From positions 1 to 64,000 of the forward strand of contig JAGTXO010000041.1 of NCBI GenBank assembly GCA_019448385.1: a stretch of DNA of 64,000 nt. The letters are read 5' to 3'. This DNA comes from Diacronema lutheri (Eukaryota; Haptophyta; Pavlovophyceae; Pavlovales; Pavlovaceae). The position numbers and the translations under genes are program-made. Shown here piece after piece: positions 1-35,037 of the stretch (positions are counted from its first letter, which is position 1; every line of letters starts with the position of its first letter). A model generated the notes under the pieces. It was not told the origin of the DNA. It saw nothing but the letters and a program-made list of their open reading frames with translations, and searched no databases.

Positions 1-565
1 TATAGATGGTCAAGCCAAATCCGATCAGGGGCACGATCGCGCCCCGAGTGCAGCGCGGGCCGTTCGGAAGGACGTCCTTGTGAGGGAGCTCTTCGCGTTT
101 GGCGAGCGGGGGAGCACGACGCGCAGCGTTGCTGCGGCGGCGTGCGGGCGGCGAGCAGCGGTCGGGCTGCTCGCGACGAGGCCGGAGCAGACGGCGCCGT
201 GGCCGCCGGCGCAGGTGACGCGCGCCGACGAGCCGTAGCGAGCGTCCGTGATCCGCACGGCGGTTGGAGCGGGCCGGCTGGTGCGGCGCGCTCGGCCACG
301 GGTGGCGGCGTGCACGGTCGTGCCGCGCGCGGCACGCGTCGCCAGCCGCGCGCGACCTGGGCAGAGCCCGCAAAGCGTCGACCGCTGCGCGGCTCGGCCG
401 TGCGTCAACGCCGGCCGCGCTTCGGCCCGCGCGCGCTGCCGCCGCCGGCACTGGCGCTGGCAGCTCCGCGGGCGGGGGTGCGGGCGCGAGAGCCGCCGCC
501 GCCACCGCCGCCGCGCCCGCCGCCGTCGTCGCCCACCGCCGTCGCCGCCGCCGCCTCCCCCGCCG
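1..565. other. Downstream flank of the Fanzor gene, low-complexity DNA
   Basis: The stretch from about 480 to 720 is made of GCC, GTC and TCG trinucleotide runs that, read on the minus strand, encode an Asp/Gly-rich tail of the upstream gene and then run past its stop at 566. The remaining roughly 470 bases contain only overlapping open frames typical of very GC-rich DNA. In Fanzor and TnpB loci the guide RNA normally lies next to the 3' end of the nuclease gene, so this flank is where a guide RNA would be sought. I see no diagnostic structure by eye. Confidence 0.4.
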
Positions 566-3110
566 TCATCGTCGTCGTCGGCCGCCGCCGCCTCCGTCGC
601 CGTCGCCGTCGCCGTCGCCCTCGCCGCCGCCGCCGTCGCCGCTGCCATCGTCGTCGTCGTCGTCGTCGCCCTCGTCGTCGCCGTCGCACTCGTCGTCGCA
701 GTCGTCGCCCTCGCCGTGCACCATGCGCTCCTCACGCTCCCACACCTCGCCGCGCGCCCACCAGGCGAGCACGAGGGCAAAGCGCTCAGGCGTCGACGTG
801 GTGTCGCGCCCGGCCGCGTGCGCCGCCATGTCGTGCACGTCGTAGAAGATGTTGCGCGCGGCGTTGTAGTCGCGGTGCACGGGCTTCTTGCCGCCGTTGC
901 ACGCCGGGCAGATGACGAGCGCGTGCACCGTGCGCGTGCCGCCCTTTGCCACGGGCAGGCGCGGGTTCTGCGCGAGCTCCGCGCCGCAGCGCTGCAGCCT
1001 GCCGCCCTTGGCGAGCCGCGGCATCGAGCAGTGCATCGACGTGTACGGCTCGGGCACGAAGACGGCCGCGACGCCGCGCCGCCGCAGCTCGCGCAGCAGC
1101 CCCACCTGGAAGGCGGGCGGCGCGCCCTTGGGCTGCGCGCCCTTGTGGTCGCGCAGCCACTTGCCCACGCACACGAGCAGCCGGTCGCGCGTCACGCCGT
1201 CGACACAGTGCGCCGCGATGAGCGCCTCGGCGACGCGCGCCGCGTTGGACCGCCCGCCGCTGTCGCGCCGCCAGCGCTCCTTCCGGCGCGCCGGCGCGTC
1301 GTACACGTGCTCGGCGGCGCGCTCGCGCACCCGCGCGCTCTCGCGGTGGAAGGCGTGGAACTCGCCCTCGCCGAGCACCTTGGCGCTGTGCGCCTCGCCA
1401 AGCCGCGCCTCGTCCGCCTCCACGCTGAACTCCTCGCCGCGCCCGTCCTTGCGCACAGCGCCGCCGCGCCGCGTTGGTCTTGGCCGTCTCGCGCGCAAAG
1501 CCCGCGGCGCGCGCGCGCGCGCGCCTGCGTGAACTGCCGCCAGACGGCCGCCCGCCCGACGTGCGCAGAGTAGGTGGTGATGTTGCCCATGTTCGGGTCG
1601 GCCGCGACGACGACCGCCGCCTCGACGTCGATCGCCCGCCGCAGCTCGGAGCCGAGCGCGACGGCGATGCGCCCGTCCGGCCGGCGCCAGCGGTGCAGGA
1701 CGCCCGAGCCGCCGGCCGGCGCCTGCGCCTTCGGCACGAGGACGGTCCCGACGGCGTGCACGGCGACGCCATCTGTCACCACCGACTTGACGGGCTGCCG
1801 GCCCGGGAGCGGCACGCGCGGCAGCGGCGCGAGGCCAACCCACGAGCGCCGCGCGTGCCACGGCAGATCGGCCGGCGGCCGCTCGCGCCCGGCGTAGTCG
1901 AAGACGCGGTTGGAGATGTCGAAGCGCGTCGCAAAGACCGCGTACCTGACGCGCACGTCCGACATCGGCGGGGTGTTGCCGTTTGTGCCTGTCCACTTGA
2001 TCGGCTCGCCATCGTGGTCGCGCAGGTCCAGCGCCTTGAGCCGCGCGCGCAGCTCCTTGCGCTCGTCATCCGAAAGCGTCACCCAGATGGCGCTCGCGGC
2101 GAGGCGCACGTTGCGCGGCACCTGCGCGCAGCGCGCGGCGCGCGAGCGCGCGGGCGCGTGACCAACCTGGCCGCGGGGCGGCGCGCACGGCGGCGGCGCG
2201 CGCGCTTGGGCGCTCGGCGGCGGCAGCGGCAGCCACGCCTCGCGCGCACATTGTGCGTGCGCAGCGGCGCCACATTGTACCGCGGCGGCCGTCCGGTCAG
2301 CTGCGTGTGGATGTGCGCGAGCCGGCAGAGCAGCGCCTGCCCCTCGGCCACGTGCTGCAGGGTGCGGATCTGCACGAGGAAGTAGCGCGTCGTGTGCCGG
2401 TCGTAGTTCCACCTTTTCGTGGGCGTGCACTTGTAGTCGATCTTGTGGAGGACCATGTCGGGCAGGTGGCGGTCGAGCGCGGCGGGGCAGCCGACGCGCG
2501 CGCCCTCCACGTCGCCGCGCAGCAGCCGCTCGCACAGCTCGCGCACGCGCGCGTTTCGCTGCATCTCGGGCAGCGCGACGAGCGCCTCGTCGCGCTCGAC
2601 TGCCGCGCGGACGACGTCGCGGAGCAGCCCGTTCACGACGCGCGATGGATGCATCAGGCACGCGGTGGACACCTGCGTCGCCTCCGCCTCGAGGATCTCC
2701 GTGAGGCCCACCGCGCAGACGGGCTGGACGCCCTCGGCCATCTCGCCGACGGCGCGCGCCGTCGCCGCCTTGGTCTGCGCGGCGGCTTGCTCGGCGGGCT
2801 TGCCTCGGGGCGCTGCACCGTACGTGCTCTCGTCCTTGTGCCAGCCGATGGCCGAGAAGATCGCACGGACGGTTCCCTTGTCCATCGTGGTCGACGTGTG
2901 CACGCTGGTCGACGGGCCGCCCGACGCCGCGCCGACGGCCTGCGCGCTCGCCACCGCAGCCTCGTCGCGCACCACCTTGTTGATGACGCGGTACGCCTGT
3001 GTCGTGAGCCTGTGCACGGCCGCCGCGATGCGCCGCAGCTCCTTCCGCGCACCGGGCTGCGCCGTCACCGCCTGCGGCCCCGCGTTGAGCGTCGAGCGCT
3101 TGACCACGAA
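566..3110 (-). CDS. Fanzor (eukaryotic TnpB-like) RNA-guided nuclease, C-terminal part of the giant gene
   Basis: The three RuvC signatures of the TnpB/Fanzor family appear in the right order. AADPNMGN at about 1581-1604 carries the first Asp. VPEPYTSMHC at about 1026-1060 matches the family's E-x-x-TS-x-x-C box with the second acidic residue. HRDYNAARNI at about 847-882 matches the RD-x-NAA-x-NI box with the last Asp. Between the last two boxes, pairs of Cys (CGAE, CPAC) suit the zinc finger inserted in this nuclease. The helical N-terminal part (3110-2250) and the segment after the intron (RYNVAPLRTHN followed by VPRNVRL) resemble the region before RuvC-I in Fanzor proteins. The tail is Asp/Gly-rich. 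The coding path shifts frame about twice in the RuvC half, so this copy is probably inactive unless the assembly is wrong there. Confidence 0.8.
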
Positions 3111-6100
3111 GCCCGGGAGCACGCTGACGCGCGTGCGCGCCGTCGCGCCGCCGGCGGCGCGCGCGCTCGGCGCAGCGGGCTCGTCCACGCGCGCGCGCTC
3201 GACGCCGCGCGCGCGGGGAACGCTCGGCGCGCGCGCGCCCGCGGCGTCGCGCGCGCTCGCGGCGGCACCCGCCGCGGCGCGCTTGCCCGCGGCGCCCGAC
3301 TCGCCGTGCGCGCGAAGCGGCGCCGACGCCAATGCCGACGCCGCGCCCGCGCCGCCGCTGCCGCTGCCCGATACGCCCGCGCGCCGCTTCTGCTCGTCGC
3401 GCGTCTTGCGGAACTGGGCGACGAGGTCGCTGCTCACGTTGGCCTCAGGCTCCCACGTGTCGGCGCTCTCGTCGTAGCCCCGCCACCTGATCCGGAACTG
3501 GAACGTCACCTTCTTGCCCGCCTTGCGGCGCTCGTCGACGACCGCCTCGACCTCGTACGTGCGCGCCTCCTCGTCGACGCTCGCGCCCGCCGCGCTCGCG
3601 CCCGTGTCCGGCCACCCAGCGACCGTGCCGCCCAGCCTCTCGGCGGCCGCGCGCAGCTGCCGCTCGCGCTGGGCGGCCGCGGCGCCTCGCGCGACCAGCG
3701 CGGGCAGCATGCCCGCGCCGCCCGCGAGGCCGTGCGCGCCGACGCTGGCGGTCATCAGCGCGTCGAGGCACGCGAACGTTGCGAGCGCACGCGCGCCATC
3801 GTCGCCGCCGCGCGGCTGCGAGCGCACGACGGGCGATGGCCGCGGCTCCCCCTCGGCCGCGAGCAGCGGCCAGATCGCACTGGCCAGCGCGACGGCATGC
3901 GCGCCGACCGCGACGGCCACGTCCGCGTCGAGCGGCGCAAAGTCGTAGCGCACGAGCGCGGCCGGGCGCGAGTCGTCCGTCGGCCGGTCGGCGACGAGCA
4001 GCCCGACCGGGCGCGGCGGCTCGCCGGACGGCGCGGCGACGGGCACGCAGAGGAGCACGACGAGCAGGCGCGGCGTGCCGCCGAGCAGCGCGCGCGCGGC
4101 ATCCGCCCCGTCGGCTCCGCCGCGCGCGGCCGCGGCGAGCAGCTCGGCCGCGCGCGTCGGGCCCAGCGCCGTGCGCGCGTCCTTGCGCGCGCGTGCGCGG
4201 GCCGTGTACGCGGCGCAGGCGTCGTCGAGCACCGCCGCGCTGGGCGCGGTGCCAGTCGTCGCCCACGCGCGCAGCGCGTCGCGCACCCGCGTGACGATCG
4301 CCTGGTCGACCGCCGCCTCGCCGGCAGCGTGCGCCGGCGCGCACGCCGGCGGTGCGGCGGCAGGCGCGAGCGCGGGCGCGCCGTCGGCGCCGTCAACGCC
4401 GACGGCGCCGTCGGCGCGCCGCCACGCGAGCTTCGCCTCGATCTGCTGCCGGACGGCGTGGCAGTGCCGGTCGATGCCGCGCGCGTCGTCGAGCGCGGCC
4501 AGCGCGTCCTCAGCGGCGGGACGGCCGCTCGCGTCCGCGACGGCCTGCAGGCAGAGCAGCGCGGCCGCACGCGCGTTGCACGCGCTCTGCGGCTCGGGCG
4601 CGAGCGCGAGCTCGAGCTCGAGCGGCGACGCGCCTCGCGCCGCGGCGATCGCGTCCATCAGCACGTCCAACCGCTGCACCAGCGCCCTGTGCGCGTCGCG
4701 CGGCGCGCCCGTCGACGGCGCGCGCGAGCGCGTCGCCACGAGCCCGAGCGCGCGCGCCGGCGCGCCCGCCGGCGTGTGCAGCACGAGCAGCGCCGCGCCC
4801 GCCAAGCTCGCGTTGCGCGTGACGAGCGCGAAGATGCGCGTCGCCTCGTGCGCGCCCACCGACGCCCAGATCGCAGCGCGATCGGCGTCCGTCTGCGCGT
4901 CGCACAGGTCGCGCACGTCGTCCGGCGCGAGCAGCGCGCCGCCGCCGGCGGAGCGCGCGACGATCGCCCGCGCCTCCGCCACGAAGACGGCCTGCGGCAG
5001 GTCGGCGTGGCGCGCGTCGACGATGGCGCGCGTCGCGTGCACGCCGAGCTCCACGCCGCGGTAGAAGGCGCGCGCGTTGGCCGCGCGCGCGTGCGCCGGC
5101 CGTCCGTCCGCGTTGCGCCTCGCGCGCGCCTGCTTGCTCGTGCGCGCGAGGCCGTCGCGTGGCGGTGGCGGCAGCGTGGCGAGGAAGCGCGCGGCGGGCG
5201 GCGGCGCGCGCACGCCGCGCTGCCGCCGTGCGATGGCCGCGAGCCGCCGGCCCGCCGCGCTGCCGCCCGCGCCGACGTGCTGCCGGCGGCCGAGCGCCGC
5301 CGGTGGCGGCGGCGGCGGCGGCGCGGCGGCGGGCGGCGGCGCGACGGCGGGCGGCGGCGCGGCGGCGGGCGGCGGCGCGGCGGTGGGCGGCGGCGCGGCG
5401 GCGGGCGGCGGCGCGGCGGCGGGCGGCAGCGGCGGCGGCGCGGCGGCGACGGCAGCACCAGTCGGCTTGTCCGCCCACGCACCCGAGACTCTGTCCCAGA
5501 CCTTGCCCCATGGCGCGCGCCCACGCGGCCGCGCGAACTGCCCCGGCTCGAGCGCCTGGCCGCGCTTGGCGGCGGCGGCGGCGGCAGGGGGCGGGCGGCC
5601 GGCGCGCCAGTCGAAGACAGGTGCAACCGTGGCGGCAGGCGCCGAGTGCCGCGCGTCGGTCACAGAGCGCGTGGTGCGCGCGGCGACCGTGGCACGCCTG
5701 GCGGGCGGGCGGTGAGCAGCGCCCGCCGGCGCGCCGGCGGGCGCGGCCGCCGCGGAGGCGCCGCGCTTGCGCTTGCGCGTGCCGCCGCGCGTGCGCCTGC
5801 GCGCGCGCCCGCCGCGCGCCCGTTCGGCCTGCGCGTCGCCAGCCGCGTCGCCGGCCGCGTCGCCGCGCCGCACGTAGACGACCGCGAACGCCTCCTCGCC
5901 GGTCCCGTCGACGCCGCCGCGCGCGCGGCGCAGGACCGACCGCCACTGCAGCCGCCGCGCGCGGCCGGGCTCGCACGCAAACCAGCGCCCACCGCGCCTG
6001 ACGACGGCCACAAAGTCGTCGTCGCGCCGCCCGCGCCGGCGCGTGCGCAGCAGCACGCACTGCACGTCGAGCCAGCCCTCGTGCCAGTCGGCCGTGCTGG

Positions 6101-9100
6101 GGGCGACGCGAATCGACTGCGGGAGCTCGACGCCAAAGCCGGCGAGGCGCACGATGTGCGCGACGATGACGCTCGAAATGGCGGGGGCGCTCGACGGGTC
6201 GCCCGCTGCAGCGAGCACCGCCCCGCCCCAGTGCTCACGCGTGACGCAATCCGCGTCCTCGACGTGCACGTGCGCCACGCTCGCGCCGAGCTGGTGCAGC
6301 AACGCGCAGATGTCGGCGTCGACCGTCCTCTCCTCCTCGGCCGCCTCGGCCGTGCAGCGGGCGGCGGCGTCGCCTGCCGGCTGCCCGAGGTACGCGATCG
6401 CCCGCTCGACGGCCGCGCGCTCCGCACGCGCTGCGCTGTCGATCGCCGCATTGCCGACGGGCGCGCGCAGCGCCGCGATCGCGTCTTGCAACGCCGTCGC
6501 GTCGCCCGTCGCCGCCGCCGCCGTCACCGCCGCCGCGCTCGCGGTGCCGTGCGCGACGGCGTGCAGCGCGGCGGCGCGCGCGGCGGGGATGCGCCCGTCC
6601 AGCGCGAGCACGAGCGGCGGCCCGGCCGGCGTCTGCTGCCGCCGGTGCCGCCGGCTCGCAGCCGGGTGGTCGGCGCGCGCGCGCTCGAGCCGCGCGCGCC
6701 GCTCGACGACGCGCGCCCAGAAGGCCTGCACCCTCGGCTGCGCGAATGCAAGCCAGCCGGCGCCGCGCGTCACGACGTGCACGACGATCCGGTCCTCGTG
6801 CCTGAGGTACTGCACGTAGAGCGCTTTGCTCACGCCGAGGACGTGCATGCCGAGCTGCAGCTGATCGCGGTGCGGCTGCGGCGGCCCGTCCTCGTGCGCC
6901 GTGGCGCCCGCCTTGGTGAGCGTCTTCACCTCGACGAGGACCTGCTCGTTGTTTTCGGGGAGGATGGCGAGCCCGTCCGGCGAGAAGGCGAACGGCGCGC
7001 TCTTGTCGTGCGGGTCCGCACGCACCATCGGCAGGTTGCACACGACGGTGATGCCGTACGCGGCCGCCAGCTTGCGCAGCGCGACGGCCTCGCCGAGGAT
7101 GCCCGCGGTCGTCGCCTTGGTCCGCACCTCGCGCCGCCGCCGGTGCACGTACTCGTCGGTGAGCGTCTCGTGCGCGACGCCGGCGTTGTCGTTCACGACG
7201 TCGCCAACCTTGCTGCCCGTGACCTCCTCCCATCGCTCGTCGTGCCAGCGCGGGCTGCGCTGCGCGGGCGCGCCCGCGCCGACGGCGTCGAGCACGCGGC
7301 GCAGCGCTGTGCCGTCGGGCGCAGCAGGCACGCGCGCGCGGTCCTGGGCCTCGCGAGCGTCGAGGACGCGGCCCGTAGTGGAATCTTGGGGTAGGTCGAG
7401 CTTGCTCGCCTCGCCGTAGCGGCTCTCCAGCTGGCGCGGTGCGTCGGCAGGGCCGCCGTCCGTGCGCGCACCCGACGCGCCCGCCAGTGCACGCGGCGCA
7501 GCGTCCGAGGCGCCCGCCGCGCCCGCGCCGCCGCCAATCGCGCCAGCGCACGCGCGCGCCGCGACCTGCGGACGGCCAGCCGCAGGGACCTCGTCCGCTC
7601 GGCCGGCCGCTGCGTCGGCCGTCCGCTTGGCCACCTCGCGCACGTCTCCGAGCGCGAGCGTGGCTGGCGCCGTCCAGCTCCCGTTGCGTTTGTCCCAACA
7701 TTTGAGCAGCCCGCCAAGGAAGGGCGTGCCCGTCGGGCGGTCCTCGGGCACCTCCGCCAGGATCGCGTCGACGCGCAGCGCGGCCGCCACATCGCAGAAC
7801 GCGCGCGCGGCGCGCGCCATCCGCTCGGCGCGCGCGCCGCCGTCGTCCGCCGCGCGGCGGATGGCGTGGCTCACGTGCGCGACGCGGAGCGAGACGACGG
7901 CGTGCGCCGGCGCGTCGGCGCCCGTGCCGAGCGTGTGCCGCCGGATGGCCAGCTGCCCATCGCCCATGCGCGGCGGCAGCGACGCGCACGCCGCGACGGT
8001 CGTCGTGCCGGCCGCGCTGTCGCACAGCCAGCTCGCCTCGCCGCCGCCCGCAAACTCAAAGGTCGCGAAGCCCTCGCGGCCGAAAAGCGCGACGAAGTGG
8101 TCGAGCACCGCCTTGTTGATCGCGCGCGCCGCCGGCCGCGTCGATGCGCCGCGGGCAGCGCCACCCGCCGCGCCGCGCGCATCGCTGCACGTCGCAGGGC
8201 AGGTGCAGCCGGACGCGCGCACGCCGTCCGACCGCGTCCGCGGCAGCTCGAGCTCGCGCACCTTGGGGCAGAACCAGAGCGGGTTGGACGCCTCGAGGCA
8301 CAGCACGACGAGCCGCCCGTCCGTGCCGGCCAGCGCGCGCGCGTCGCGCAGCAGCTCGACGGCGAGCTCGGACGTCGCCGCGTGCACCGCCGGCTCGCCC
8401 GTCGCGCGGTCGGGCGGGAAGAGGCCGCCGCCGACGAGCGGGCTGGGGCAGCGGCCGAGCATCACGAGAAGCGGCGGCGGCGGCGTCTGCGGCGCCTGCT
8501 GCCCGACCGCAGCCGCCGTCAGCCCGGCCAGGTCGGAGCTCGTGCGGAGGGCCTTGAGCGCGACGCGCGAGCCGGTGCCCGCCTGCTCGGAAAACGTGGC
8601 GAGCATGGCGCACGTGCTCGCCCTCGCGCCGCACTGCCAGCTGACGCGCGCGAGGAGGCCTTCCAGCGTGTCGTTTTCGCGCGGCCGCGTGACCGCGTCG
8701 AGCGCCGCCGGGCCGAGCTGGAGGCTGCCGGGCGTGACGCACAGCACCGCCTCGTGGTAGGCGCGCAGCAGCTCCCTCGGCAGCTGCTCGGCGGGCGTCG
8801 CCGCCTGCCCGCCCACCCACCGTGCACCGTGGCCGCCGTCGCCCGCGCCCGCGAGCCGGACCGCCGGCCCGCCCGTGATCGCCGAGGTCGGTGGCGTGCC
8901 GAGCGCGTCGACGAGCGCGCGCACGGGCGCGACACGCCTGCGCGCAGCGTCCGCGCCGACGGCGAGCGCGGCGATCTGAGCGCCGTCCCATGCGCGCTCC
9001 CTCGCGTCGTCCCGCGCGGCCGCCGGCGCGGCGCCCGGCCGCGCGCCGGGCGGCACCGCGCACGCCGCCGCGACGACCTCCGCGCGCGCGCCGGCGGCGT

Positions 9101-10956
9101 CGGGCGCGTGCAGCTGCGCGAGCGCGCCAAAGAGCGCGGCGGCCGAGCGGTAGCGGCCGTGCGCCGCGACGAGCGCGTAGAGCACGCGCAGCGCGGCCAC
9201 GCCCGCCTGGTCGGGCGCGTCGTCAGCGATTTGCTCGACCTCCCACGTGCGCGTGGGCGGCGGGCTGCCGTCGGCCGGGTCCGGACGCAGCGCCCACGCG
9301 CGCTCGACGATCGCGTTGAACACGTCGCGCGCGGCGCCCTCGTCAAACTCGGCGGCGCCCGCCGCGTGCGCGCACCACCCGTGCACGCGCGACGTGGGCG
9401 CGTCCACGGCGCGCTGCACGACGAGCACCGCCGGCCGGTCGACGCAGCCGAGGCTCACCGCCGCGTGCTTGCCCTCGAGCAGCGCCGCCGCCGCAGCCTC
9501 GACCAAGGCGTCATCAGGCGCGTCGCCGACGACGACGGCACAGCCGTCGCCGTACTCGGCCTGCATCGCGGCGACGCACGACGCGACAAAGTCGCCGCCC
9601 GCGGCCGCCGCGTGTCGCGCCGCCAGCATCCGGCGCGCGATGGCAAGCCAGACGTACTCGGCCGGCGCGCGCGCGGCGCGCGCGCGAGGCGCGCCGGCCG
9701 CGCCGCGTGCGCCCGCGCGTGCGCCTCCAGCGGCCGCAACGGCCGAGGCGGCTGGAGCGGCGGTGAGCGTGCGCCGCGCGCGCTTCGCCGGCCGCGTGAT
9801 GGGCGATGCACCCGCCATCGCACCGCCCGCAGCAGCCGGTGCGGCCGCCACAGCGCCCGCCGCAACGCCACTCGTCACGACGCCCGTGGCGGGCGGCGCG
9901 GCGTCGGACGCGGCCGCCTCGACGGGCGTCGCGCAACTACCGCCAGCGGTCGCGGACGCGCCCGGCGACGCGTCGGCGAGGAGGTGGCGCAGCACGCCGC
10001 GCGCGAGCGCGACTCGCACGGCGAGCGTCAGCGCGCGCAGGCGGTCGGAAGGCGAGGCGTCGCGCTCGGCGTCGGCGGACGTGGCGGCAGCAGGCGGGGC
10101 GGCGGGCGGCACGGCGGCGGGCTGGGCGGCCGCCGGCGCAACCTCGTCGGCCTTGGCCAGCCAGACGAGCCCGGCGACTGCGAGCACGACGCTGTACGCG
10201 CCGACATCGTCACCCGCAACGCGCGCCAGCCGGGCGTGGGCGTCGGCCTCGGACACGGCGACGTGGAAGAGCACGTCGTCGCGGGCAGCTTGCTCGGCAA
10301 ACTGACGCAGCTGCTTGGCCATCGTCACGCCGGCGACGCACGCCTCGCCCGCCTCTGCCTCGACCTGCTCGTCCTGGCCGATGGCGGACGCGCCGGCCTC
10401 GGCGCCAGCGTCGAGTGTCCGGCGGCGCTCGAGGGCAAAGCCACGCACACAGACGCGCTGGAGGCCGCCGAGCGCGCCCGCCTTCTCGTGCAGCGCGCAC
10501 GACAGCTCGACCACCGAGTCCACGCGCCTCGCGGCGGCGCCCCCCCGCTCGCCGCGCGTGGCCGCGCGCACGACGAACACCGTGAATTGCGCGCGCTTCG
10601 CCGCGCGCGCCGACGCGCACGCGTGCTTCAGGAGCCGGCAAAGCGCGGGCCTTTGCGCCGCTGCGCCCCGCGTGCACAGCAGCAGTTGGCCGCGCTCGTC
10701 GCCCAGCTCCTGCTCGACGGCGGCCTCGAGCGCGTCGTCCGTCAAATCGCCGTGCTCCGTCGAGGCGAGCGCGCGCGCAGCCGCGAGCGCCAGCTCGCCT
10801 GCGCCCGCGCGCCGCCGGCGGCGCGCACCGGCGGGCGCGTGCGGCGCCGACGCGTGTGACGACGCCGCCGCGTCCGCGCGCGCACACGCGGCGCGCAACG
10901 CCTCACGCGCCGAGGCGGCCGCGCGCGCCCTGGGCGCGAGCTTCAAGAACGTGCGC

Positions 10957-11024
<68 letters not shown>

Positions 11025-14000
11025 GCCGGCGGCGCCGGCCGGCGGCGGCGGTGGCGGCGGTGGCGGCGCGGCCACGGCGGCGGCAGCAGCGGCGGCGGCG
11101 GCGGTGGCGGCGGCGGCGGCGCCCAGCGCGGGCGGCGGCGGCGTGGCGGCGGCGGTGGCGGCGGCGGTGACGCCAGCGGCGGCCTTGGCGCCGCGCGTCT
11201 GCGGCGGCGTTTCGGCGCGATCGGGGCTGCCCCCGCCACGCACCGCGCTCGTGACCGCGCAGACGCCGCCCGGCGCACGATCGCTGGCCGCGCCGGTCAG
11301 CGCGACGCGGAGGCGCTCGCCGACAGCGTACATGTCCGCCACGCTGAACGTGCGCGGCGCGGACGAGCAGCCCGCCGCGGCGAGCGCGTCGTTGAGCGCG
11401 CCCACTATCGCGAGGCCGCACGTCGCGCCACGCTGCGCCGCCTCGTTGAGCAGCAGCGCGCGGCGCACGCGCGAAATGTCGAGACCCGCCGCGTGCAGCG
11501 TGGCAGTTATCGCCTTGGCGAGCATGAGCGCCTGCCTGCAGGGCGACGCGAGCGTGTCGACGAGCACCGCGTCGTAGCGATGCTCGCCCGCGCGCGCGAC
11601 GCGCACAAGGCGCAACGCGGTGAAATGGCCGGAGGCGAGCTGCGCGCCGTCGTCACCGCCCGCGCCGCCGCGCTCGTCCGACGGGCTCCACACGCCGATG
11701 ACAGCCTGCGTTGTCGCCTCGCTGCGCAGGCGGTGCAGCAGCGCGGCGCGCTCGGCGTCGTCCTGAAACACCGCGGGTTGCGCGGCGAGCGGCACGTGGC
11801 AGACATGCCCGCCGCCGGCCTGCCCGTGCACGCGCAGCACGACCTCGCAGCACGCGTCGACGGTTGAGGCGAGCATGTCGCCGCTGGCGATGCGCTCCAC
11901 CTCTGCCTGCGGGAGGCCGGCGCTCGCGGCGGCGGCGGCCAGCCGGCGCGCAGCCGCGTCGCCCGCCCACGCAAGCAGCGCCGAGTTGGCGGGTTGGAGG
12001 GGAAGCTCAAGGGCGGCTGGTTCGGTGGCGGTAGCCTCGTTGGCAACGGGCACGTTGGCGGTGCGCGCGTTGGCGGCGGGCGCGGCGGCGATGGCTGGTG
12101 GGGCGGAAGACGCGCCCGCGGCGGCAGGCGCGGACGCGGCAGCGGCAGCGGCTAGTGGGGCGGGGAAAACGCCGTCGGTGGCAGGCGCGGAGGCGAATGC
12201 AGGAGCAACTAGTGGGGCGGGAAAATCGGCGGCAGGCGCGAAGGCGGATGCAGCAGCGGCTAGTGCGGCGGGGAAAACACCGTCGGCGGCAGGCGCGAAG
12301 GCGGATGCAGGAGCGCCCAGCGGGGCGCAGAAAACACCGTCGGCGGCAGGCGCGAAGGCGACAGCAGCAGCGGCCAGTGGAGCGGAGGCGCAGGGCCACG
12401 CGCGCGCCAGCCGTGCAAGCCCAAGCCGCGCGCGAGCGACGCACGCGCCGATGGCCGAGGCGGCGGCGCAGGCCACGACGTGGCCTGGCACCGGTGTGGC
12501 CAGCCGCTCGCGGGTGTGCACGTCGAGCCGCGCCCCACGCCAAGAGCGGCGGCGCGCTGAACGGAGGCGCGCGACCCCGATCGATCCGCCCGCGCACGCG
12601 CGCGCCGGCTCAGTGTGGCCAACGCGCGCCGCTATGCAAGGCGCGCGCGCGATAACGGCGGCTGTCGGCCGTGGCGTGCGCGTGGCGGCGCCGCGGCGAC
12701 GGGCGCGGCACACGAGCCGCTCGGGCGCGCCGCCGCCGCGCGGCACGATGTCGAGCAGCACGGTCACGCCGCGCGCGCGCGCGACCGCCGTGCACGCGAG
12801 CCGCACGGGCAGCGGCGGCCCGTCCGGGCGCGCGAGCGCCGCCACCTCGGCGTCGGTGAGGCTGTGCAGCTCGCGGCGCGCGCGCGCGAACGCGGCGATG
12901 TCCGCGCGCAGCTCCGCGTCCGTGCCGAGCGCGGCACGCGCGTGCACGGGGAGCGACGCGCGCAGCGCGTGGAGCACGCCGCCGCGCGCGCCGCGCGGCG
13001 CCGGCGCGCGCTCGCGCTCAGCGCGCGCGGCGCGCGTGAGCTCGCGCACCGCGCGCGCGAGATTGCGCCGCGCGGCCGCGACGGGAGGGCTAGGTGCGCG
13101 CGCGCGCCGGTTGTAGCGCGGCCGCGCCGAGTCGAGGGGCGGCGGACGCGGTGCGTACGCCGCGGCGCGGCCCGCGCGCCAAAAGGCCGGCGGCGGGCGC
13201 AGCTCCGTCGCGTCGACCGCGGCCGCGAGCGCGCCGAGCGCGGCGTCGCTGTCGCCCGCCGCGTCGGCCGCGTCGACGAGCACGAAGAGCGCGCCGAGCG
13301 CGCGCGACGCGGCCGCCTGCGCGGCGGTGGGGCGGGCGCAGGCAGCGACGCATGCGGCCGCCATGCCGCGCGCCGCGGCGAACGCCGGTGACGTGACGGC
13401 CGCGCCGATGGCAACGGCGGCGGCGGCGACGGTGGAGGCGGCAGCGCCGGCGATGGAGGTGGCAGCGGCGGCGGCGCTTGCCATCGCGCGGCGCGCGAGA
13501 CGCGAGGCGCCACCGACCGCCGCCGCCGCAGCGCGCGCTGCGCGCGCGCCGGTGGCGCGCATCGTCGCCGCGCCAGGCGCCGCCGCGCCGACGCCGCCGG
13601 CGCCCGCGCCGTCGCCGCTCTCGGCCGTGCAGGGCTCCGATGGCGAACCCGGCGTGCGCTGGCGCGTGATGCGCGCGCCGAGGCGCGCGCTCCGCGCCGC
13701 GCGGCCGGCGACGTCGAGGAAGCGCCGTGCGCGCGCCGCGCGCAGGCCACGCGCGCGCGGCGGCGCACCGACAGGCGCCGAGCGCCGCGGCGCGCACGCC
13801 GGCGCGTCGCTGTCGGGTTGCGCAGCGCGCGCGCGGGAACTCGGCGCGGCGTGTGCGGGCGGCGGGCGCGCGCCCGCGCGGCGCAGAGGCGCGAGGCGCC
13901 GGCCGCAGACGAGGCGTGTGCGCAACCAGGACGGCGAGGGCCGCAGGGCGCCGTCGACGTCGCGCATCGGCGGGCCGCGAGCCCGCCGCGCAGCCGTGCG

Positions 14001-17000
14001 GCGCGCGCGAGGCGCTCGGCGGCGCGCGCGCCGCACGGCGCGCGCGGCGGCGCGCACGCCAGCGACGGCTGCGGCCACGCCGCGCGCCAACACGGCCGCG
14101 GCGTGCGCCATCGCACCGAGCACGGCGCGTGGCGCGCCGAGCAAGCGCAGCAAGCGCGACGCCGTCGCGCGCGCCGGCGCACCGTGTGCAGGGGCCTCGC
14201 CAGCGCCAGCACCGACGCCGCCATCGCCGCAGCCGCAGGTGGCGTCGCCGCCGCCGCAGGCGTCGCGACGGACGCCGCCGCCGCCGAAACAACCGCCGCA
14301 CACGTCGCCGCCGACGTTGCCACCCCAGCCGCCGTTGCGTGCGCAGGTGGCTGCGGCGCGTGCGTGCGGGAGGCGTGCCGTGCGGCGCGCATCACACGGG
14401 CTGCGCGACGCGAGCGACGCCGCCGGGGTCCCCGCTGCGCCAGGCGCGCCGTGCGCGCCAGCCTCGCCGGCCTCGCCGGCGCGCGGTCGCGCGCTCGCCT
14501 CGACGTGGCCGCCTCCGCCGCCATCGCCGCCGTCGAACCGGGCGGCGGAGGGCTGCCGCTCGAACCGCTCGTCGGCGTCGGCCGCCACCGCCGCCTCGCG
14601 CTCCGCCGCCGCGGCGGCCGCACGGCGCGCGTGGCGGAGCGCGCGGCCGCCGTCCGCTGCGCGGCGTGGCGGCGCGGGCGCGGGCTTCGGCGCGCGCGGC
14701 CCCTCGGCGCGCTCGCGGAGCACGGCGAGCGGCGTGCCCGTGGCGACGCTCGTGCAGACGCGCCGCAAGGCGGCGCTTACGCACGCGTGGACGACGCGCG
14801 CCGTCCGCTTGTCGGCGGCGCGCGCGGCGCGGCGCGCGGCCTTGGCGGCGGCCTTTTTGGCGCGCCTCTGCTCCGCCTGCTCCGACAGCGCGCGCGCCTG
14901 GCGCTCGGCTGCGAGCGCGTCCTCGGGCGAAACGGTCGGCCTCGGCGGCCGCGCGCGCGCGCTGCGACGCTGCGCGCTGCGGCGGTCGGACGGCGGCTGC
15001 CGCGGCGGCGAGGACGGCGAGCGCGAGCTCGGCGTGGGCGACCAATCGCCGCTGACGGTTGCGAGCGGCGCAAACGGGTTGTCGTCCCCGCGACCCGCGG
15101 CGTGCGACAGTGCACGCGGCGTCGGGCGCCGGCCGACCGCTGGCGGGCCCCACTCGGACGGCGGCTCCGAGGGCGAGCGCGCCGTCGGCGCCGCGCGTTG
15201 CGCGGCCGGCGGCGCCTCCCGGTCCAGCGCCGCCTGCTCTCTCGCCGCGGCCTGCTCGTCACCCTCCGGCACGCCACGCGGCGCGAGCACCGCGGTGGCG
15301 CAGCGCGTCGCGTTGAGCAACGCCGCCTCCATCTGCCGCACGCTGGCCTTGGCGCACGCCACACCCTGTCTCGCCCGGCGCAGCGCCTCGTGCGCGCGGC
15401 GCACATCCGCGTCGGCATCTTCGCGCATGCCAAAGTGCGCCTGTTGCAGCCGCAGGTCCGCAGGGCGCCCCTGCGCGCGAGGGGCACGGGCGCGGCGGCG
15501 CGCAGGTGACGGAGCTGGCGCGCCGTTCTGCGCTGCGCGCACGCCAATCGACGGGCGCGCGCGCGGCGGGGCGCGCGCGCGCGCGCGCGCGCGCGCTGCC
15601 TACCCAGCCGCCGGCCGGCTCGCGCGAGCGCGCCAGCTGCTCCGCCGCCTCGGCGTCGAGCACGCGCTGCTGCGCCTCCTCCTCGCCCAGTGCAGCGAGG
15701 TGCAGCCGGCGGGCTGCCTTGCGGCAGTTGCCCTCCGCCTTGCCCACGGCCTTGCGCGCCGCGTCGACGGGGTCGTCGTTGGCTCTGGCGCGCCTGCGCT
15801 TGCCCTTGTCGGCGGGCGGCGGCTTGGCGCGCTGCAGCGTGCCGAGCGCGTCGTCGGCTCCGCGCGCGGCCGCCCGCGGGCGGCGGGCCCCAAAAAGCGC
15901 ACCGGTCGCCGTGCGCGCCGCGCAAGCAACGACCAGCGCTGACATGCCGGCGAAGACCGCACCGCCCAGCGCCACGGTTGCCACGATGCGCAGCGTCCCG
16001 TGCGCAAGCTGCGCTGCCTCCGCCGCTTTGGCGGCCTCGCGCGCGCGCGCATCGGCGGCTCTCATCTCGTGCAGCAGCCCGGCCGCGCCGCTCGCGCCGT
16101 CGCGGCCGCGCGCGAGCTCGCACAGCACCGCCGCCGCGCGCCGCGTGGGCTCGCGCGCGAGCAGCTGCGCGCCGCCGTCGGGGCGCAGCTTCTCAACAAA
16201 CTCGACAAACGTCGCGTCGCGCCAGAGGGACATGCGGAAGGCCCTGTGCACCGCCCCCTCCTGCTCGCGCATCCGCCGTGCCGCCCGCCTGCCGTCGCGC
16301 GCGTGCGCGTGCGCGGCCGCGTCGAATCCCGCGACGCCGCGCTGCGCGTCGCGCGCGGCCGACGACGGCGCCGCCGCGCTGCCCGCCAAGGGCGCCGCAG
16401 CGGCGACGCGCGCGTGCGGAGCGACGGGATCGCCGGCGGCCGGCGGCTCGGCGCGCTGCGGCGTGCCGTTTGCTCCGCGCGCGGCCGTCCCGGGGGAGAT
16501 GGCCGCGATGGCGCCGCCAGCCGCGCCGCGCGCCAGCCACGCGCATAGGCTGCCGACGAGCTCGCCGAGACCCCCGACGGTCGCCGCGGCGGCGAGTGCG
16601 CCGGGCTTGCCGGCCGACAGCGGCTCGCGAGCGTCGTCGTCGCAGCCGCCGGCACCCGTCTTGGCGAGTGCGTCGCGCTCGCCCTCGACGCCCGCCACGA
16701 CCGCCGCCCCTCCGTCGTCCGCCGCGCCGGCCGCGCGCGCGGCCGGGCGCAGAGGAGGCGTGCCGGTGCAGCCGTCGCCGCTCGTCTTCGCCGTTTCCTC
16801 CACTTTGGTCACTTCGTCGCCACCTGCGCCATCTCCGACGCCGGGGCCCTTGGTCACGCTTGCCGCCATGCGCGCCGTGCCCGCCGGCCAGCCCGCCGAC
16901 TGCTCGAGCGCGGCGGCGAGCGGCGCGACGCGCGTCGACTCGGGCGCGCTCTCGTCATCGGGCTCGAGCGCGTTGTGCAGGCGCGCGAGCGCGCGCTCGA

Positions 17001-19278
17001 CGGCCGCGGCGCCACTGCCGGGGGCGCGGCTCGCCGCGCGCACCGCGCGCCGCCAGGCCGGCGCGAACATGAGCGCCGGCTCGAGCGCCGCGAGCGCGCG
17101 CGCCTCGCGCGCGTCGCTCGCGCCGAGGCGCGGCGGCACGCGCGCGGCTCCGCGCGGCGCGGTGCCTCGGAAGCGTGGGCTCAGCGTGTAGGCGAGGTGC
17201 TGCGGCACGCCGCGCGCCTCCGCGCGCGCGCGTCCGTCCTCGACCTCGCGCCGCGCCTTCGCGATCGCCGGCGTGGCGCGCGCGAGCCAGTCGGGGTCGG
17301 CGGGCAGGTGGATCACGACGAGAATCGGCGCCCAGTCCAGCCGCGGGTTCTTGTGACGGTCGGGCACGACCCACACGAGCAGCACCGTGCCCTCCGCGCC
17401 GCACGCCGCCTCGTAGATCCTGGGCTGCGAGCGCCAATCGGGCCTGACGCGCAGCGCCCGCGCGTGGTCGATGGCGGCGGCGCGGTCGCCATTGAAGTGA
17501 ACCGTCGTCACCTCGCCGATGACGGACCGGCCGGACCGCCAGCAGAACACCGCGTCCGCCGACCCGCCGGCGATGGCCGCGAGCGATTCGGGCGCGGCGA
17601 GCCGCGGCAAGCCCTCGAAGGCGGCAAAGTCCTCGTGCGCATTGTACACGCCGCCCCAGCCGTCGTGCGCGTACGCGCGCGCGGCCGCTCGTACCGCGCG
17701 CGGCTGGTTCTCCACGCCCGACGTCATGTGCCATGTCGTCCCCGCGAAGCCGGGCTCGCCCAGCTCGGCCCGCACGACGGTACCGTACCCCGCGCCCTGC
17801 GTCGGGGCGGCGAGGTGGTGCATGCCCGCGCCGGTCACGCCCTCCGTGCGCTGCCGCGTGACGATCGTGCCCGTCGCGTGCGCGAAAAGCGTGTCGACCA
17901 CGGCGGGCGCGCGCCCGCTGTTCGCCCGTAGCCGCGCCCTGCCCGCTTTTAGCTGCTCGGGGTCCTTGGCGTCGTACACGCGCGCGTCCGCGTCGCCCTC
18001 ATCAGGCGCAGTGTAGACGCAGCGGCGTTCGAGCGGCGCCGAGCCACCGCCGTCCGCCGCCGCCGGCGAGGTTGGCGCCGCGCCCGCCGCCACCGCGCTC
18101 GTCGCCGCCGTGCCCGTCGCCACCGCCGCAGCCGCCGCGCCCGCGGGGTCGTCGTCCCCGTCCTCCGCGCCCTCCCCGTCGTCAGCGGTGGTGGCGTCGC
18201 CATCGTCCCCGTCGCCCTCGCCCCCGCCGAGGCTGCTGAATGGTCGGGGCCCCCACGCCGAGGCGGCGCGCCGCTGCGGCGCACGCGGCGGTGGCGCTCG
18301 CGACGGCGGCCTTGGCGCCGCCGCGCCGCGCGGCCTGGCCGCCGTCGACAGCGCGCGGCCTGCAGCGCCCGTGAGCGCGTCGAGCGCGGCCGTGCGTGCG
18401 ATGCGGTCGTCGGGCGCGCGCAGCGCCGCCTCGACGGCCTGCAGCAGCCCGTCGGGCGCGGATCCGCCGACACTGGCATCGCACGCCTCGGCGAGCCGCG
18501 CGGCCTCGGCGAGCCGCGCGGCCTCGCGGGTGAACGGGCCGAAGCGCCTGGCGCGGTCGCCGAGCAGAGCGCCGATGGCGGCGCGGAGCGTGCGCGCGCG
18601 GGTCTCCTCGTACGCGGCCGTCGTGAGGCGCGCGAGGCGCGCGTCCAAAGCCTTCTTGATGTCGACAAGGACACTCGCGCGGCGGCCGTAGAGCGTCGAT
18701 GCGCTCGCCACGACCTCGGCCGCGACTGTTGCCGCGGCGAAGCAACACGCGGCCCCACTCTGCGGGGGCGCCTTGAAGGCATCGATGGGCGGCGCTGTTC
18801 TGCCGATGCGCTGCGCAAGCTTCTTGATGAGCACGCCGGCCGCCGTGGCGTACGCCGATTCGCCGTTGCCCAAGGTGCGCGAATCGGCGAGCAGGGCGAG
18901 CGCGGCGCCGGGCGGCGCGCCGCGCTGCGCGGGCGGCGCGAGGAGCAGGTACGCCGCCGTCCAGTGCACGAGGCCGCTGGACGCGCGGAGGCAGAGCGGT
19001 AGCACGACCACGAGCACCTGCCCAAACCGGTCCGCATCCGCGCATGCTTTGCGCAGGTTGCGCAGCGCCACCTTGAGCGCATGCTGCGAGCACCCCGTGT
19101 CGCCCACCCTAACCCTGCTCGTGCCGAAATCCGCGTAACGCAGCAGGGCGATGAGGCAAGTGGATGGGACCACGTGGGGGTGGGTATCTCCCGGCGACAG
19201 AATGGTGCTGAGGGCCAGCGAGAAACTGTCCGAGCCGCCCCGCCCGCCGGGCAAAGCGTCCTTCACGGAGTCCTCCAT
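566..19278 (-). CDS. Giant multidomain gene ending in a Fanzor nuclease
   Basis: The gene starts at 19278 and reads 15604-19278, 2250-15470, then from 2121 onward. Two GT-AG introns (15471-15603 and 2122-2249) join these segments in phase 0, and both joins keep domain sense. The open sequence exceeds 5,600 codons before the last part, where the catalytic Fanzor half continues in other frames after about two frame changes near a GC-dinucleotide run. Domains in order are a Ulp1-like peptidase, a degenerate YqaJ-like domain, a coiled coil, Ala/Pro-rich spacers, a second Ulp1-like peptidase, poly-Ala, YqaJ exonuclease, chromodomain and Fanzor. Such a protein would cut and resect DNA on chromatin and might be processed by its own peptidases, which is inference. 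Alternatively these are several genes in one GC-rich stretch without stops. A start further upstream is possible. Confidence 0.5.
3385..3565 (-). other. Chromodomain within the giant gene
   Basis: The translated segment has the chromodomain layout: YEVEAVVD, then a short basic loop, FRIRWRGYDES and DTWEPEANV, followed by a helix with FRKTRDEQ. The aromatic residues expected to hold a methylated lysine are present (Y of YEVE, W of RWRGY and W of DTWEP). Chromodomains in mobile elements commonly steer insertion or tether the protein to marked chromatin. Here it lies about 100 residues before the Fanzor part, an arrangement I do not know from described Fanzor proteins. Confidence 0.85.
5290..5450 (-). 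repeat. Pro/Ala-rich tandem repeat in the giant gene
   Basis: A 15-18 base unit rich in GGCGGC and GCGGCGGGC recurs about eight times. On the minus strand it encodes alternating PPP and AAA blocks, a flexible spacer. It lies between the YqaJ exonuclease domain and the region before the chromodomain. Confidence 0.8.
6690..7265 (-). other. YqaJ/lambda-exonuclease-type domain within the giant gene
   Basis: The segment shows the whole core of the YqaJ viral-recombinase family, a PD-(D/E)XK nuclease. It opens with W-x-x-x-R-W-x-x-VTGSK, continues with a Gly-x-x-x-Glu helix (GEAVALRKLAAAYG), then FSPDGLAI, then LVEVKTL with the E-x-K pair, and ends with HRDQLQLGMHVLG, the family's Gln-rich helix. 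The catalytic D, E and K positions are intact. Such enzymes chew one DNA strand from ends and support strand annealing in phages and mobile elements. Here the domain is embedded in a much larger protein. Confidence 0.85.
10955..11170 (-). repeat. Poly-alanine-coding GCG/GCC trinucleotide repeat
   Basis: About 200 bases are nearly pure GGC/GCG triplets with a few GCC interruptions. In the minus-strand frame they code for runs of Ala with Pro and Gly. The tract follows the second Ulp1-like domain and probably forms an unstructured linker. It is prone to slippage, so its length may vary. Confidence 0.9.
11400..11650 (-). other. Second Ulp1-like (C48) peptidase domain in the giant gene
   Basis: The triad spacing of Ulp1/SENP-type cysteine peptidases is visible. 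SGHFTALRLV gives the His, YDAVLVDTLAS the Asp, and AAQRGATCGLAIV the Gln and the nucleophilic Cys followed by Gly. Ulp1-like domains cut SUMO-type conjugates or polyproteins and are recurrent passengers in large DNA transposons. Whether this one trims the giant protein itself or strips host SUMO cannot be told from sequence. Confidence 0.75.
12140..12400 (-). repeat. About 60-bp coding minisatellite in the giant gene
   Basis: Four to five imperfect copies of a unit encoding roughly FAPAADGVFPAPLAAAAS lie head to tail. Copies differ by single substitutions and one is shortened. The repeat sits just before the second Ulp1-like domain and adds an Ala/Pro-rich spacer. Confidence 0.85.
17280..17800 (-). 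other. Degenerate YqaJ-like domain in the first exon of the giant gene
   Basis: The order of features echoes the YqaJ domain further downstream: a Glu-containing helix ending in AAARAYAH, then a strand with SADAVFCWR, then SVIGEVTTVHF, then a helix and VLLVWVVPD. The usual E-x-K is E-x-T here, so a catalytic Lys is missing. This suggests an inactive paralogue used for structure or binding. The similarity is weak, and a different fold is possible. Confidence 0.4.
18700..19000 (-). other. First Ulp1-like (C48) peptidase domain in the giant gene
   Basis: The segment GLVHWTAAYLLLAP supplies the His-Trp pair of Ulp1-type peptidases, ALLADSRTL supplies the Asp, and PPQSGAACCFAAATVA supplies the Gln and Cys. 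The residue after the Cys is not the usual Gly, so the site is less canonical than in the second copy. It lies within the first 200 residues of the predicted giant protein. Confidence 0.6.
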
Positions 19279-22655: not shown

Positions 22656-23678
22656 TCAGGCCACGCGCGCGTGCCGCGCGGGAGGACGGGGCGGTCGCGG
22701 CTGCGCTCGACCGCCGGTCGCGGCACCGAGCGACCGTGCGCGCCGCCGCACGTTGTAGTCGTCGCACGGAAACCAAGCCTCGTTGCGGAGCACGATGGCG
22801 ACAAGGTGCCCGCTCATCGGCCCCTCGCCCACGTGCACCACGCCGGCGACGGGGAGGTGGTCGCGCCCGCCGAGCAGCAGCCGCGGCGCGCACACGAGCG
22901 CGCGGTTGTTCTTGCACTGCGAGCCATTGCCGCGCGTCGTGCGCGGCGCCTCGACAGCAATGCTGGCTGGCGTGAGCACGCCCGAGTGGCCCGCGTTCGT
23001 GTGGCGATCCCGCGGCGGCCCAGCGGCGCCCCCCAGAGCGTGTGCAAGCGCGCGCGCCGCATCGCCGCCGACGCTGACGAGTACGGCGATGCCCTCGCCG
23101 GCCTCTGAAGGCACGGCGATCTGCTCGAGCACTGGCCCGACGCGTGTGTCGGCTTCAAAGGCCGCAGCGAGCCCGGGCACTCGGCCGAGCAGCAACCGGA
23201 AGAACTCAGCGGCATCCTGCGGCGTCCTTCGCGCGCCACGGCCCGAGATGACGTCGATGACGGACACAAGACACAGCCGTGTCGGCGCCCTGGTGTCCTC
23301 GATCAGCGTGCCAAAGTCCCGAAAACGCGCCCTCTCGACGCTGTTGGCACGGCGCGAAGCGGAGCGAAGCATCGCACGGAGCATGTTCAGGGCGAAGAGC
23401 GATTGCATAAGGACGGTCGTGTAGCACGCGCTGCCCTCGTTTTTCGCGCCTGCGCCGCGCCGCGCAGCGCCGGGTGTGCGGGGTGCGCACGCACGGTTTG
23501 CGGCGGGATGGAGGGAGGCTGGCTGGGCGCGCGCCGAGCCCGGCAAGCCGTGCAGGCGCTCACCACGCGGCACGCCGGGCACTCTCACCGGCCACATCGG
23601 GCCGTCAAACGCGTCTTCCACAGGCTGCCGACCGACGACGTAAAACTTGCTCAAGGCGCCGCGCCGTGCACGCGCCAT
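22656..23678 (-). CDS. Ubiquitin-specific protease (USP, peptidase C19)
   Basis: This enzyme would remove ubiquitin from proteins. The Cys box reads NEGSACYTTVLMQSLF (about residue 83 holds the Cys) and matches the N-x-G-x-x-CY-x-x-x-x-x-Q pattern of USPs. The His box reads VVHVGEGPMSGHLVAIVL, followed by EAWFPCDDYNVRR, which matches the family's H-x-G-x-x-x-x-GHY and W-x-x-x-DD pattern (His near residue 290). At about 340 residues it is a minimal catalytic domain. A GT-AG intron probably removes the low-complexity stretch just before the Cys box (23455-23575), because KFYVVGRQPVEDAFDGPMW upstream looks genuine. The start at 23678 is a guess. It shares strand with the helicase and giant genes and may belong to the same element. 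A host origin cannot be excluded. Confidence 0.65.
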   Translation of the reverse strand: MARARRGALSKFYVVGRQPVEDAFDGPMWPVRVPGVPRGERLHGLPGSARAQPASLHPAANRACAPRTPGAARRGAGAKNEGSACYTTVLMQSLFALNMLRAMLRSASRRANSVERARFRDFGTLIEDTRAPTRLCLVSVIDVISGRGARRTPQDAAEFFRLLLGRVPGLAAAFEADTRVGPVLEQIAVPSEAGEGIAVLVSVGGDAARALAHALGGAAGPPRDRHTNAGHSGVLTPASIAVEAPRTTRGNGSQCKNNRALVCAPRLLLGGRDHLPVAGVVHVGEGPMSGHLVAIVLRNEAWFPCDDYNVRRRARSLGAATGGRAQPRPPRPPARHARVA

Positions 23679-28053: not shown

Positions 28054-28153
28054 GGCGCGCACGACGTCGCCCAGCCAGAGCAGCCCGGGGCGGGGCGAGT
28101 CCGGCTGCGCGGAGGTCCGGCTCGAGCGGGCGGGCGCCATGCTCTGAGGCGCC

Positions 28154-35003: not shown

Positions 35004-35037
35004 CCTCGCCGTTTCCCGCCCAGCCGTGGTATGAGTA

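Follow-up and report, generated by a model that had tools for sequence, protein, structure and literature searches.

The DNA considered here, referred to throughout as the window, is the whole analysed stretch of 64,000 bases (positions 1-64,000) at the start of contig C92 of the Diacronema lutheri assembly, the 43.49 Mb and 103 contigs of which were searched. On its minus strand, from 19278 to 566, lies what reads as one coding path ending in a nuclease of the TnpB/Fanzor type. The path forms the 3' part of a repeat of about 30.47 kb (window 30468-1), a young, high-copy DNA mobile element. The genome of D. lutheri NIVA-4/92 has been described as 73.25% guanine-cytosine (GC) with 22.9% repeats, from reads with an N50 of 23 kb (PMC8379373), and the available part of that account makes no mention of the 30-kb element. 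A sequence-only reading of the window had depicted a single giant, multi-enzyme gene. Profile and motif searches located its features at the positions it gave; its single-gene picture was incomplete, lacking the element of about 30.5 kb, the copy number, and the Pif1 and ubiquitin C-terminal hydrolase (UCH)-like domains.

The giant path and the element that carries it comprise the following features.

1-30468, minus strand: whole element, with 5' terminus CTATATACGG at 30468 and 3' terminus ...CCATCTATA at 1 (copy comparison)
15604-19278, minus strand: proposed exon 1, starting at an ATG (open frame, GC phase, intron candidates)
18742-18975, minus strand: Ulp1-like triad 1, H...D...Q....C (motif order only)
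15471-15603, minus strand: proposed intron 1, 133 bp, phase 0, TGG/GTAGGC...GCGCAG/GGG, with a (GC)n run inside
2250-15470, minus strand: proposed exon 2 (4,506-codon open frame, GC phase)
11415-11630, minus strand: Ulp1-like triad 2, H...D...Q....C (motif order only)
6696-7271, minus strand: YqaJ/RecE/lambda-exonuclease-type nuclease (PHROGs phrog_434, RecE-like exonuclease, 5.1e-15)
3405-3557, minus strand: chromodomain (PF00385, Chromo, 7.5e-12)
2250-3116, minus strand: Fanzor N-terminal part, in the same frame as the chromodomain
2122-2249, minus strand: proposed intron 2, 128 bp, phase 0, AAT/GTGCGC...GCGCAG/GTG (GC phase switch)
566-2121, minus strand: proposed exon 3, Fanzor C-terminal half (PF07282, RuvC motifs)

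A giant reading frame that ends in a nuclease

The path is made up of minus-strand open frames of 1,345 codons (19296-15259) and 4,506 codons (15599-2079), followed by the frames of the Fanzor. Against the 4,506 codons of the second, the longest run in 200 dinucleotide shuffles averaged 864 and never exceeded 1,572. In steps of 450 bases, GC at the third codon position is highest in the exon-1 frame from 19.7 to 15.6 kb, and in the exon-2 frame in 27 of the 29 steps from 15168 to 2119, the exceptions being 14268-13819 and 12468-12019; the contrast is weak (at most 0.11) in five of the 29, including the Pro-rich linker at 5718-5269. After exon 2 the GC phase switches to the frame of Fanzor exon 3. 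Spliced, the path would run to about 6,200 codons, a sum of coordinates in which the length of exon 3 is taken from intact copies.

Two phase-0 GT-AG introns joining these frames, as proposed in the sequence-only reading, are possible. Both fit the switches in GC phase, but the exact ends of intron 1 are uncertain because 103 donor-acceptor pairs keep the frame, among which this one was chosen for its good donor and fitting phase switch. Within intron 2, a 2-bp length difference at 2206 occurs in 5 of 15 aligned copies.

That the C-terminal end of the frame is a TnpB/Fanzor-type nuclease is supported by a match to Cas12f1-like_TNB (PF07282) at an E value of 1.9e-6 and 28.4 bits, above the cut-off of 26.3 (27.3 bits in the intact 1015-residue frame of copy L023). 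The RuvC-I, RuvC-II and RuvC-III boxes lie on the minus strand at 1599-1582, 1051-1028 and 877-848, with a zinc region before the last. The Fanzor motif of Bao & Jurka, D-X(125,275)-[TS][TS]-XX-C4-X(5,50)-RD (PMC3627910), is present in all four intact copies tested, with a D-to-TS spacing of 184, four cysteines and RD. The placing of the RuvC boxes in this family is supported, and with YqaJ and the chromodomain in one frame and the RuvC boxes after intron 2, so is the predicted position of a Fanzor as the last, C-terminal part of a giant frame with several enzymes.

Similarity over the Fanzor as a whole is weak: the NCBIfam guided_TnpB profile gave E values of 0.014 and 0.085, far under its cut-off, and no Fanzor appeared among the PDB sequence matches to the Fanzor part. 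With the RuvC part the PDB sequence search returned Cas12f only, at 0.064, level with an unrelated protein at 0.073, and PADLOC gave weak Cas12f-like matches to the Fanzor part, the best at 0.0055 (named Csx1). The N-terminal part at 2250-3116 is presumably REC/WED-like, to judge by its position.

Across the genome, 31 of 148 PF07282 matches outscore the element's own Fanzor, some of them in open frames of 1,300-1,800 codons; such higher-scoring sites (e.g. C9:378667, C69:650235, C71:952894, C85:60775 and C89:783182) represent other Fanzor families. Three such Fanzors lie 7.5-12.6 kb downstream of Pif1 relatives at 96-99% (C71:940311, C75:1061472, C78:92396), suggesting related elements with a different Fanzor near those relatives.

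Other domains of the giant frame

The chromodomain and the YqaJ exonuclease of the sequence-only reading are both borne out, the former by its Pfam match and the latter by its PHROGs match. For the YqaJ region, NCBIfam TIGR03033 (lambda-exonuclease family) scored 2.9e-5, under its curated cut-off, and the Pfam search 0.031, also under cut-off; in a genome-wide PF09588 search the sole pass was the C71 copy, at 28.2 bits (one match among 150 scored candidates). The region holds SPDG at 6983 and EVK at 6938, which we take to be catalytic.

Ulp1 peptidases (C48) carry His, Asp, Gln and Cys in that order within a cysteine-peptidase fold. Where two Ulp1-like peptidases had been proposed, this residue order does occur twice, with 41 residues from D to Q and 5 from Q to C in both triads (hand count), but no Pfam peptidase match was found at E<=1 in the giant-gene frames. 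A loose form of the motif occurs 2 times against a shuffle mean of 1.06 and is not enriched; for the strict form the shuffle control is circular, because the motif was written after both sites had been seen. The fold model of the first part has a predicted local distance difference test score (pLDDT) of 50 and a weak alpha-beta core, and a PDB fold search with this low-confidence model found nothing at or below E = 0.001, and its best 50 entries include no Ulp1. An array of further Ulp1-like repeats was considered and rejected, blastp and phmmer having found no likeness between segments. Elsewhere in the genome, L087 (G000:C31:101114-101785) is a diverged copy of Ulp1-like part 1 in which the triad residues are kept.

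A young, high-copy mobile element

The element is present in at least 150 copies. The best 150 of 388 candidate RuvC matches have 98-100% protein identity. Among the best 150 of 187 candidates for the first Ulp1-like part (Ulp1-1), 16 stand at 93-97%, as do 7 of 126 matches (from 232 candidates) for the Pif1 N terminus at 94-97%, and these more distant matches indicate that older subfamilies exist. For the 5' end, 40 matches were listed from 274 candidates. The C71 copy is colinear with window 30469-1 at 99.4-99.7% identity, save for a local inverted duplication near 28.1-28.5 kb. In this region the window has an 86-bp inverted repeat pair (28153-28238 and 28381-28466), and the C71 copy has the 332-bp segment 28135-28466 as an extra inverted copy.

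Eighteen copies were fetched over part of their length, and their main DNA matches are 98.2-99.7% identical to the window. The main alignment comprises the window and 15 other copies over 8.7 kb; L025, L028 and L035 were excluded as rearranged or deleted. L025 (C9:420500-430490) has a 4.2-kb internal inversion, and L028 (C13) is cut at about window position 4020, with host genes adjoining. L035 (C28), considered as a 5'-truncated copy, rather appears to have an internal deletion that joins the Pif1 region to the YqaJ region, and shorter 5'-to-RuvC distances point to internal deletion in further copies. A related element proposed beside the C28 copy (L086) was dropped for want of convincing similarity.

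Among these copies the frames are largely intact. The three RuvC motifs share one frame in 18 of 19 sequences (18 copies and the window), the exception being the window, where the Fanzor frame is interrupted by 1-bp differences near 1525 and 1457. These, and similar differences at 581 and 534, are absent from all 15 other aligned copies and so are private to the window copy or errors at the contig end. The "about two frame changes" earlier seen in the Fanzor half are hence of different kinds, one being intron 2 and the others these copy-private differences. The Fanzor frame reaches at least 1,000 codons at 108 of the 150 RuvC matches listed. In 16 of 19 sequences a single frame holds both YqaJ and the chromodomain and runs on to the intron, the exceptions being L024 (frame break), L025 (internal inversion) and L028 (truncated). 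The chromodomain frame is at least 4,000 codons long in 102 of 146 listed copies, and at least 5,000 in 7; these 146 are the best 150 matches less the first four, judged to be other genes. The seven indels in the aligned giant frame include four that are multiples of three (9, 24, 24 and 18), two in L037 (29 and 4) that add up to 33, and one of 8 bp in L024 that breaks the frame.

Both ends of the element are sharply defined. On the left, C is directly followed by TATATACGG in 22 of 22 copies (20 sampled, C71 and the window). On the right, CCATCTATA is directly followed by C in 19 of 20 copies in the both-end sample and in 15 of 15 in a separate flank set, and C follows all 31 distinct right ends at which the terminus was found; in the window copy this C falls just outside the contig. 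The remaining copy of the 20, L067, lacks the expected right terminus in the stretch fetched. The both-end sample was picked among the best 40 of 274 5'-end candidates with a RuvC match at the right distance, and it favours intact ends because the copies were chosen from listed 5'-end matches. G follows the right-flank C in 21 of 31 cases overall (14 of 18 in the both-end sample, 8 of 15 in the flank set), and a pyrimidine precedes the left C in 17 of 22; the left flanks have no strong shared motif beyond YC. In 19 flank pairs there is no direct repeat beyond the C, or none longer than 2 bases if the C is assigned to the element. Comparison of the element's first 60 bases with its last 150 gives no inverted match of 7 bases or longer, and there are no head-to-tail junctions within 30 bases.

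The terminal C may be part of the element or of a CC target. Four junctions in host repeats (left in L056, L060 and L064, right in L084) favour the element, an assignment weakened by the fact that those repeats end at or near the junctions. The insertion points of L056, L060, L064, L078, L077, L037 and L027 are in or close to a short host repeat, GTAAGCGYCGTTAGT, and the left junctions of the first three of these fall in its last bases.

Judged by the position of the Ulp1-1 match, 14 contigs begin at the 3' terminus of the element (C1, C2, C5, C6, C10, C12, C26, C29, C79, C80, C83, C90, C91 and C92), 12 of them within about 80 bases of it and C2 and C79 about 500 bases inside; C3, C13, C32 and C71 end there. 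Such contig limits are either chromosome ends or places where the assembly broke at the border of a 30-kb repeat, and the window holds no TTAGGG array. Outside the element, a 442-bp inverted pair, 99.8% identical (35034-35475 and 37797-37356), is perhaps another mobile element.

Upstream of the giant frame and at the termini, the element has the following further features.

25552-27578, minus strand: Pif1-like helicase gene, in several frames, with an N-terminal region of about 300 residues of unknown family
23184-23450, minus strand: ubiquitin C-terminal hydrolase-like domain (PF00443, 4.3e-8)
28749-29297, plus strand: uncertain gene on the opposite strand, close to the 5' end (open frame, without family match)
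30404-30421, minus strand: perfect palindrome of 18 bp, GTACGACCCGGGTCGTAC, at bases 48-65 counted from the 5' end
1-405, minus strand: 3' non-coding end, candidate guide-RNA scaffold

The Pif1-like gene matches PF05970 (1.7e-15 and 1.8e-24) and Pif1_2B (6.2e-13), and the minus-strand motifs at 26573-26550 and 26337-26317 are what we take to be Walker A and Walker B. Its N-terminal region gave a fold model with a pLDDT of 35; a suspected likeness to a giant-virus single-strand-binding protein was supported by no tool and was dropped.

A hairpin, GGGGCGCGATCGTGCCCC, at 45-28 stands 27 bases before window base 1. As RNA, the last 180 bases fold with a modest z score of -2.23 (405 bases, -1.33), and as DNA the 3' end is ordinary (last 60 bases, -0.27; last 100 bases, 0.02). 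At the 5' end the DNA fold has a z score of -1.91 over the first 100 bases and +0.74 over the first 60.

No known transposase was found in a six-frame Pfam scan of 19.3-30.5 kb or, elsewhere in the element, in the coding frames of the minus strand and a single frame of the plus strand, a scan that could miss a split or very diverged enzyme. The same six-frame scan and the coding frames scanned in 1-19.3 kb gave no serine recombinase. The six-frame scan gave no Rep/HUH either, and within the element there is no Helitron_like_N match, the sole one in the genome being at G000:C63:35738-36019 (L042; 8.3e-23). The frames scanned also gave no reverse transcriptase, and none of the hallmarks of Polintons and virus-like elements, namely capsid, protein-primed polymerase and packaging ATPase.

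Mechanism and mobility

Resection of 5' ends is the work of YqaJ/RecE enzymes, and break-induced copying over long tracts is promoted by Pif1 helicases. Chromodomains recognise histone tails that carry methyl groups, and Ulp1 and UCH enzymes cleave SUMO or ubiquitin. Fanzors are RNA-guided, the RNA coming from the end of the element and the guide from its flank (PMC10432273, PMC10711439). Because these families together suggest such steps, we propose an RNA-guided homing into empty sites. The Fanzor part would take its guide RNA from the 3' end of the element, with flanking DNA as the guide, a role that fits a Fanzor situated at the 3' end and a hairpin 27 bases before that end. The guided Fanzor would cut matching empty sites, the YqaJ part would resect the break, and Pif1 would help to copy the 30-kb element, as a long tract, into the gap. 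Meanwhile, the chromodomain might hold the complex on marked chromatin, and the peptidases might process the chain or strip SUMO or ubiquitin.

We lean, by a little, towards this overall account of a young element of about 30.5 kb with a giant Fanzor-ended protein and guided homing. Its strongest form, in which a polypeptide of about 6,200 residues and the element's own Pif1 make the element self-contained, homing and copying itself under RNA guidance with no conventional transposase, is quite unlikely. Two points count against guided homing: by itself it does not explain spread to unrelated, non-homologous sites, and there is no clear target-adjacent motif, as the left flanks share no strong motif beyond YC. 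Against the overall account, no diverged homologue came from three viral-contig scans, which used the Fanzor, YqaJ and the Pif1 N terminus as queries.

The element may instead be a non-autonomous passenger, moved in trans by a Helitron-like (rolling-circle) or IS607-like transposase and carrying the giant gene as cargo, which we regard as a real possibility, though short of an even one. The ends would suit such a passenger in lacking terminal inverted repeats of at least 7 bases and flanking duplications of more than 2 bases (19 of 19 pairs) and in having a hairpin near the 3' end, but that end reads CTATAC and not the CTRR of Helitrons, and no head-to-tail junction lies within 30 bases. One Helitron_like_N match exists elsewhere in the genome, on C63, whereas the six-frame scan of 19.3-30.5 kb found neither Rep/HUH nor serine recombinase, and many copies are of full or near-full size. 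The invariant C next to either end (all 22 left ends and all 31 distinct right ends) resembles the fixed right-flank nucleotide of IS607 elements (PMC10711439), and non-autonomous Helitron2 of Chlamydomonas is described as a carrier of Fanzor1 genes (PMC3627910).

One protein or several

The giant frame probably yields a single protein, and one transcript and protein is the likely product. This is favoured by the continuous frame and GC phase, by the lack of any Met between the chromodomain and 2885 in the Fanzor N-terminal part, and by the 102 of 146 listed chromodomain copies whose frame reaches 4,000 codons or more.

Other data count against a single protein under selection. In-frame Mets at 4658, 3755 and 3710 would permit a separate chromodomain-Fanzor gene, and 44 of the 146 listed chromodomain frames fall below 4,000 codons. 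Variable sites in the 16 aligned copies number 36, 29 and 38 at codon positions 1, 2 and 3, and selection on the frame is not demonstrated, as there is no codon-position bias among copies; none is expected, since young copies do not themselves evolve under selection, and the variation is too small for strong selection tests. When L037 is compared with three other copies, nonsynonymous and synonymous rates are about equal in the linker and the Fanzor N terminus, and in the Ulp1-1 region the window and the diverged L087 differ by 18.5 nonsynonymous and 1.5 synonymous changes. Nonsynonymous change is the rarer kind in the YqaJ stretch alone, where the L037 comparison gives proportions of nonsynonymous (pN) and synonymous (pS) differences of 0.003-0.008 and 0.009-0.017, respectively.

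Two or more overlapping genes, one for a Ulp1-like/YqaJ protein upstream and another for a chromodomain-Fanzor protein starting at Met 3755 or 3710, would make the carrier an otherwise ordinary Fanzor-bearing transposon, and we consider this rather unlikely. The three in-frame Mets would allow it and coding periodicity is weak in the Pro-rich repeat linker at 5.3-5.7 kb, but the frame and its GC phase run on unchanged from one side to the other, four of the seven indels are multiples of three, and the stop-free stretch of at least 4,000 codons recurs in 102 of the 146 copies listed. Such a division would also fit the usual Fanzor size of about 500-800 residues (PMC10711439). That the giant frame is a by-product of DNA of about 80% GC, in which nothing beyond the Fanzor and a few domains is coding, is very improbable: long open frames are common at the 76-83% GC of 2-15 kb, and a 1,784-codon antisense frame is present, but 4,506 codons exceed the shuffle maximum of 1,572, the three-base GC periodicity holds to a single phase in 27 of 29 steps, and recognisable domains are spread along the frame.

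Significance and comparison with known systems

Fanzors are eukaryotic RNA-guided nucleases, and what they contribute to their carrier elements could be tested naturally in this alga, which can be cultured and holds at least 150 copies: one element would supply the guides, from its flanks, the targets, as empty sites, and the enzymes of repair. If the reading of a single protein is correct, an unusually large protein would contain an RNA-guided nuclease, in what would be a new packaging with DNA-repair and chromatin-binding parts in a marine alga.

The sequence-only reading knew of no described system of this form, and a search of the literature on Fanzor fusions agrees with it in finding none, with many journals outside its coverage. 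Transposon-borne Fanzors have been known since Bao & Jurka 2013 (PMC3627910), and those described are about 500-800 residues long (PMC3627910, PMC10711439). What appears new, on the domains recognised here, is the packaging of a Fanzor with an exonuclease and a chromodomain in one giant frame. One retrieved paper that mentions both Fanzor and chromodomain (PMC6338049) concerns retrotransposon polyproteins and not a Fanzor fusion. Those polyproteins, of long terminal repeat retrotransposons, likewise use the chromodomain as an accessory part, but in the D. lutheri element the scanned frames gave no integrase or reverse transcriptase and the partner enzyme is a Fanzor.

Chlamydomonas Helitron2 with Fanzor1 is comparable in having no target-site duplication in copies with exact 5' ends, a 3' hairpin and preferred flank bases, whereas the D. 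lutheri element is much larger, has other terminal sequences and has no detected Rep domain; relative to the Rep (HUH)-Pif1 fusion of Helitrons, it has the Pif1 but no Rep match. Like the D. lutheri element, IS607-type elements are not known to have terminal inverted repeats or long target-site duplications. Those with TnpB/Fanzor2 also share a fixed nucleotide after the right end (PMC10711439), but no serine recombinase was detected here. The Fanzor1 elements SPu-1 and CRe-1/2/3 share a TnpB homologue, the D...TS..C4..RD motif and a repeated mobile element; their carriers, where a size is given, measure about 2-9 kb and hold the Fanzor as a gene of its own (PMC3627910). By contrast, the D. 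lutheri element spans 30 kb and combines Pif1, YqaJ, chromodomain and peptidase-like parts with a Fanzor that ends a path of about 6,200 residues.

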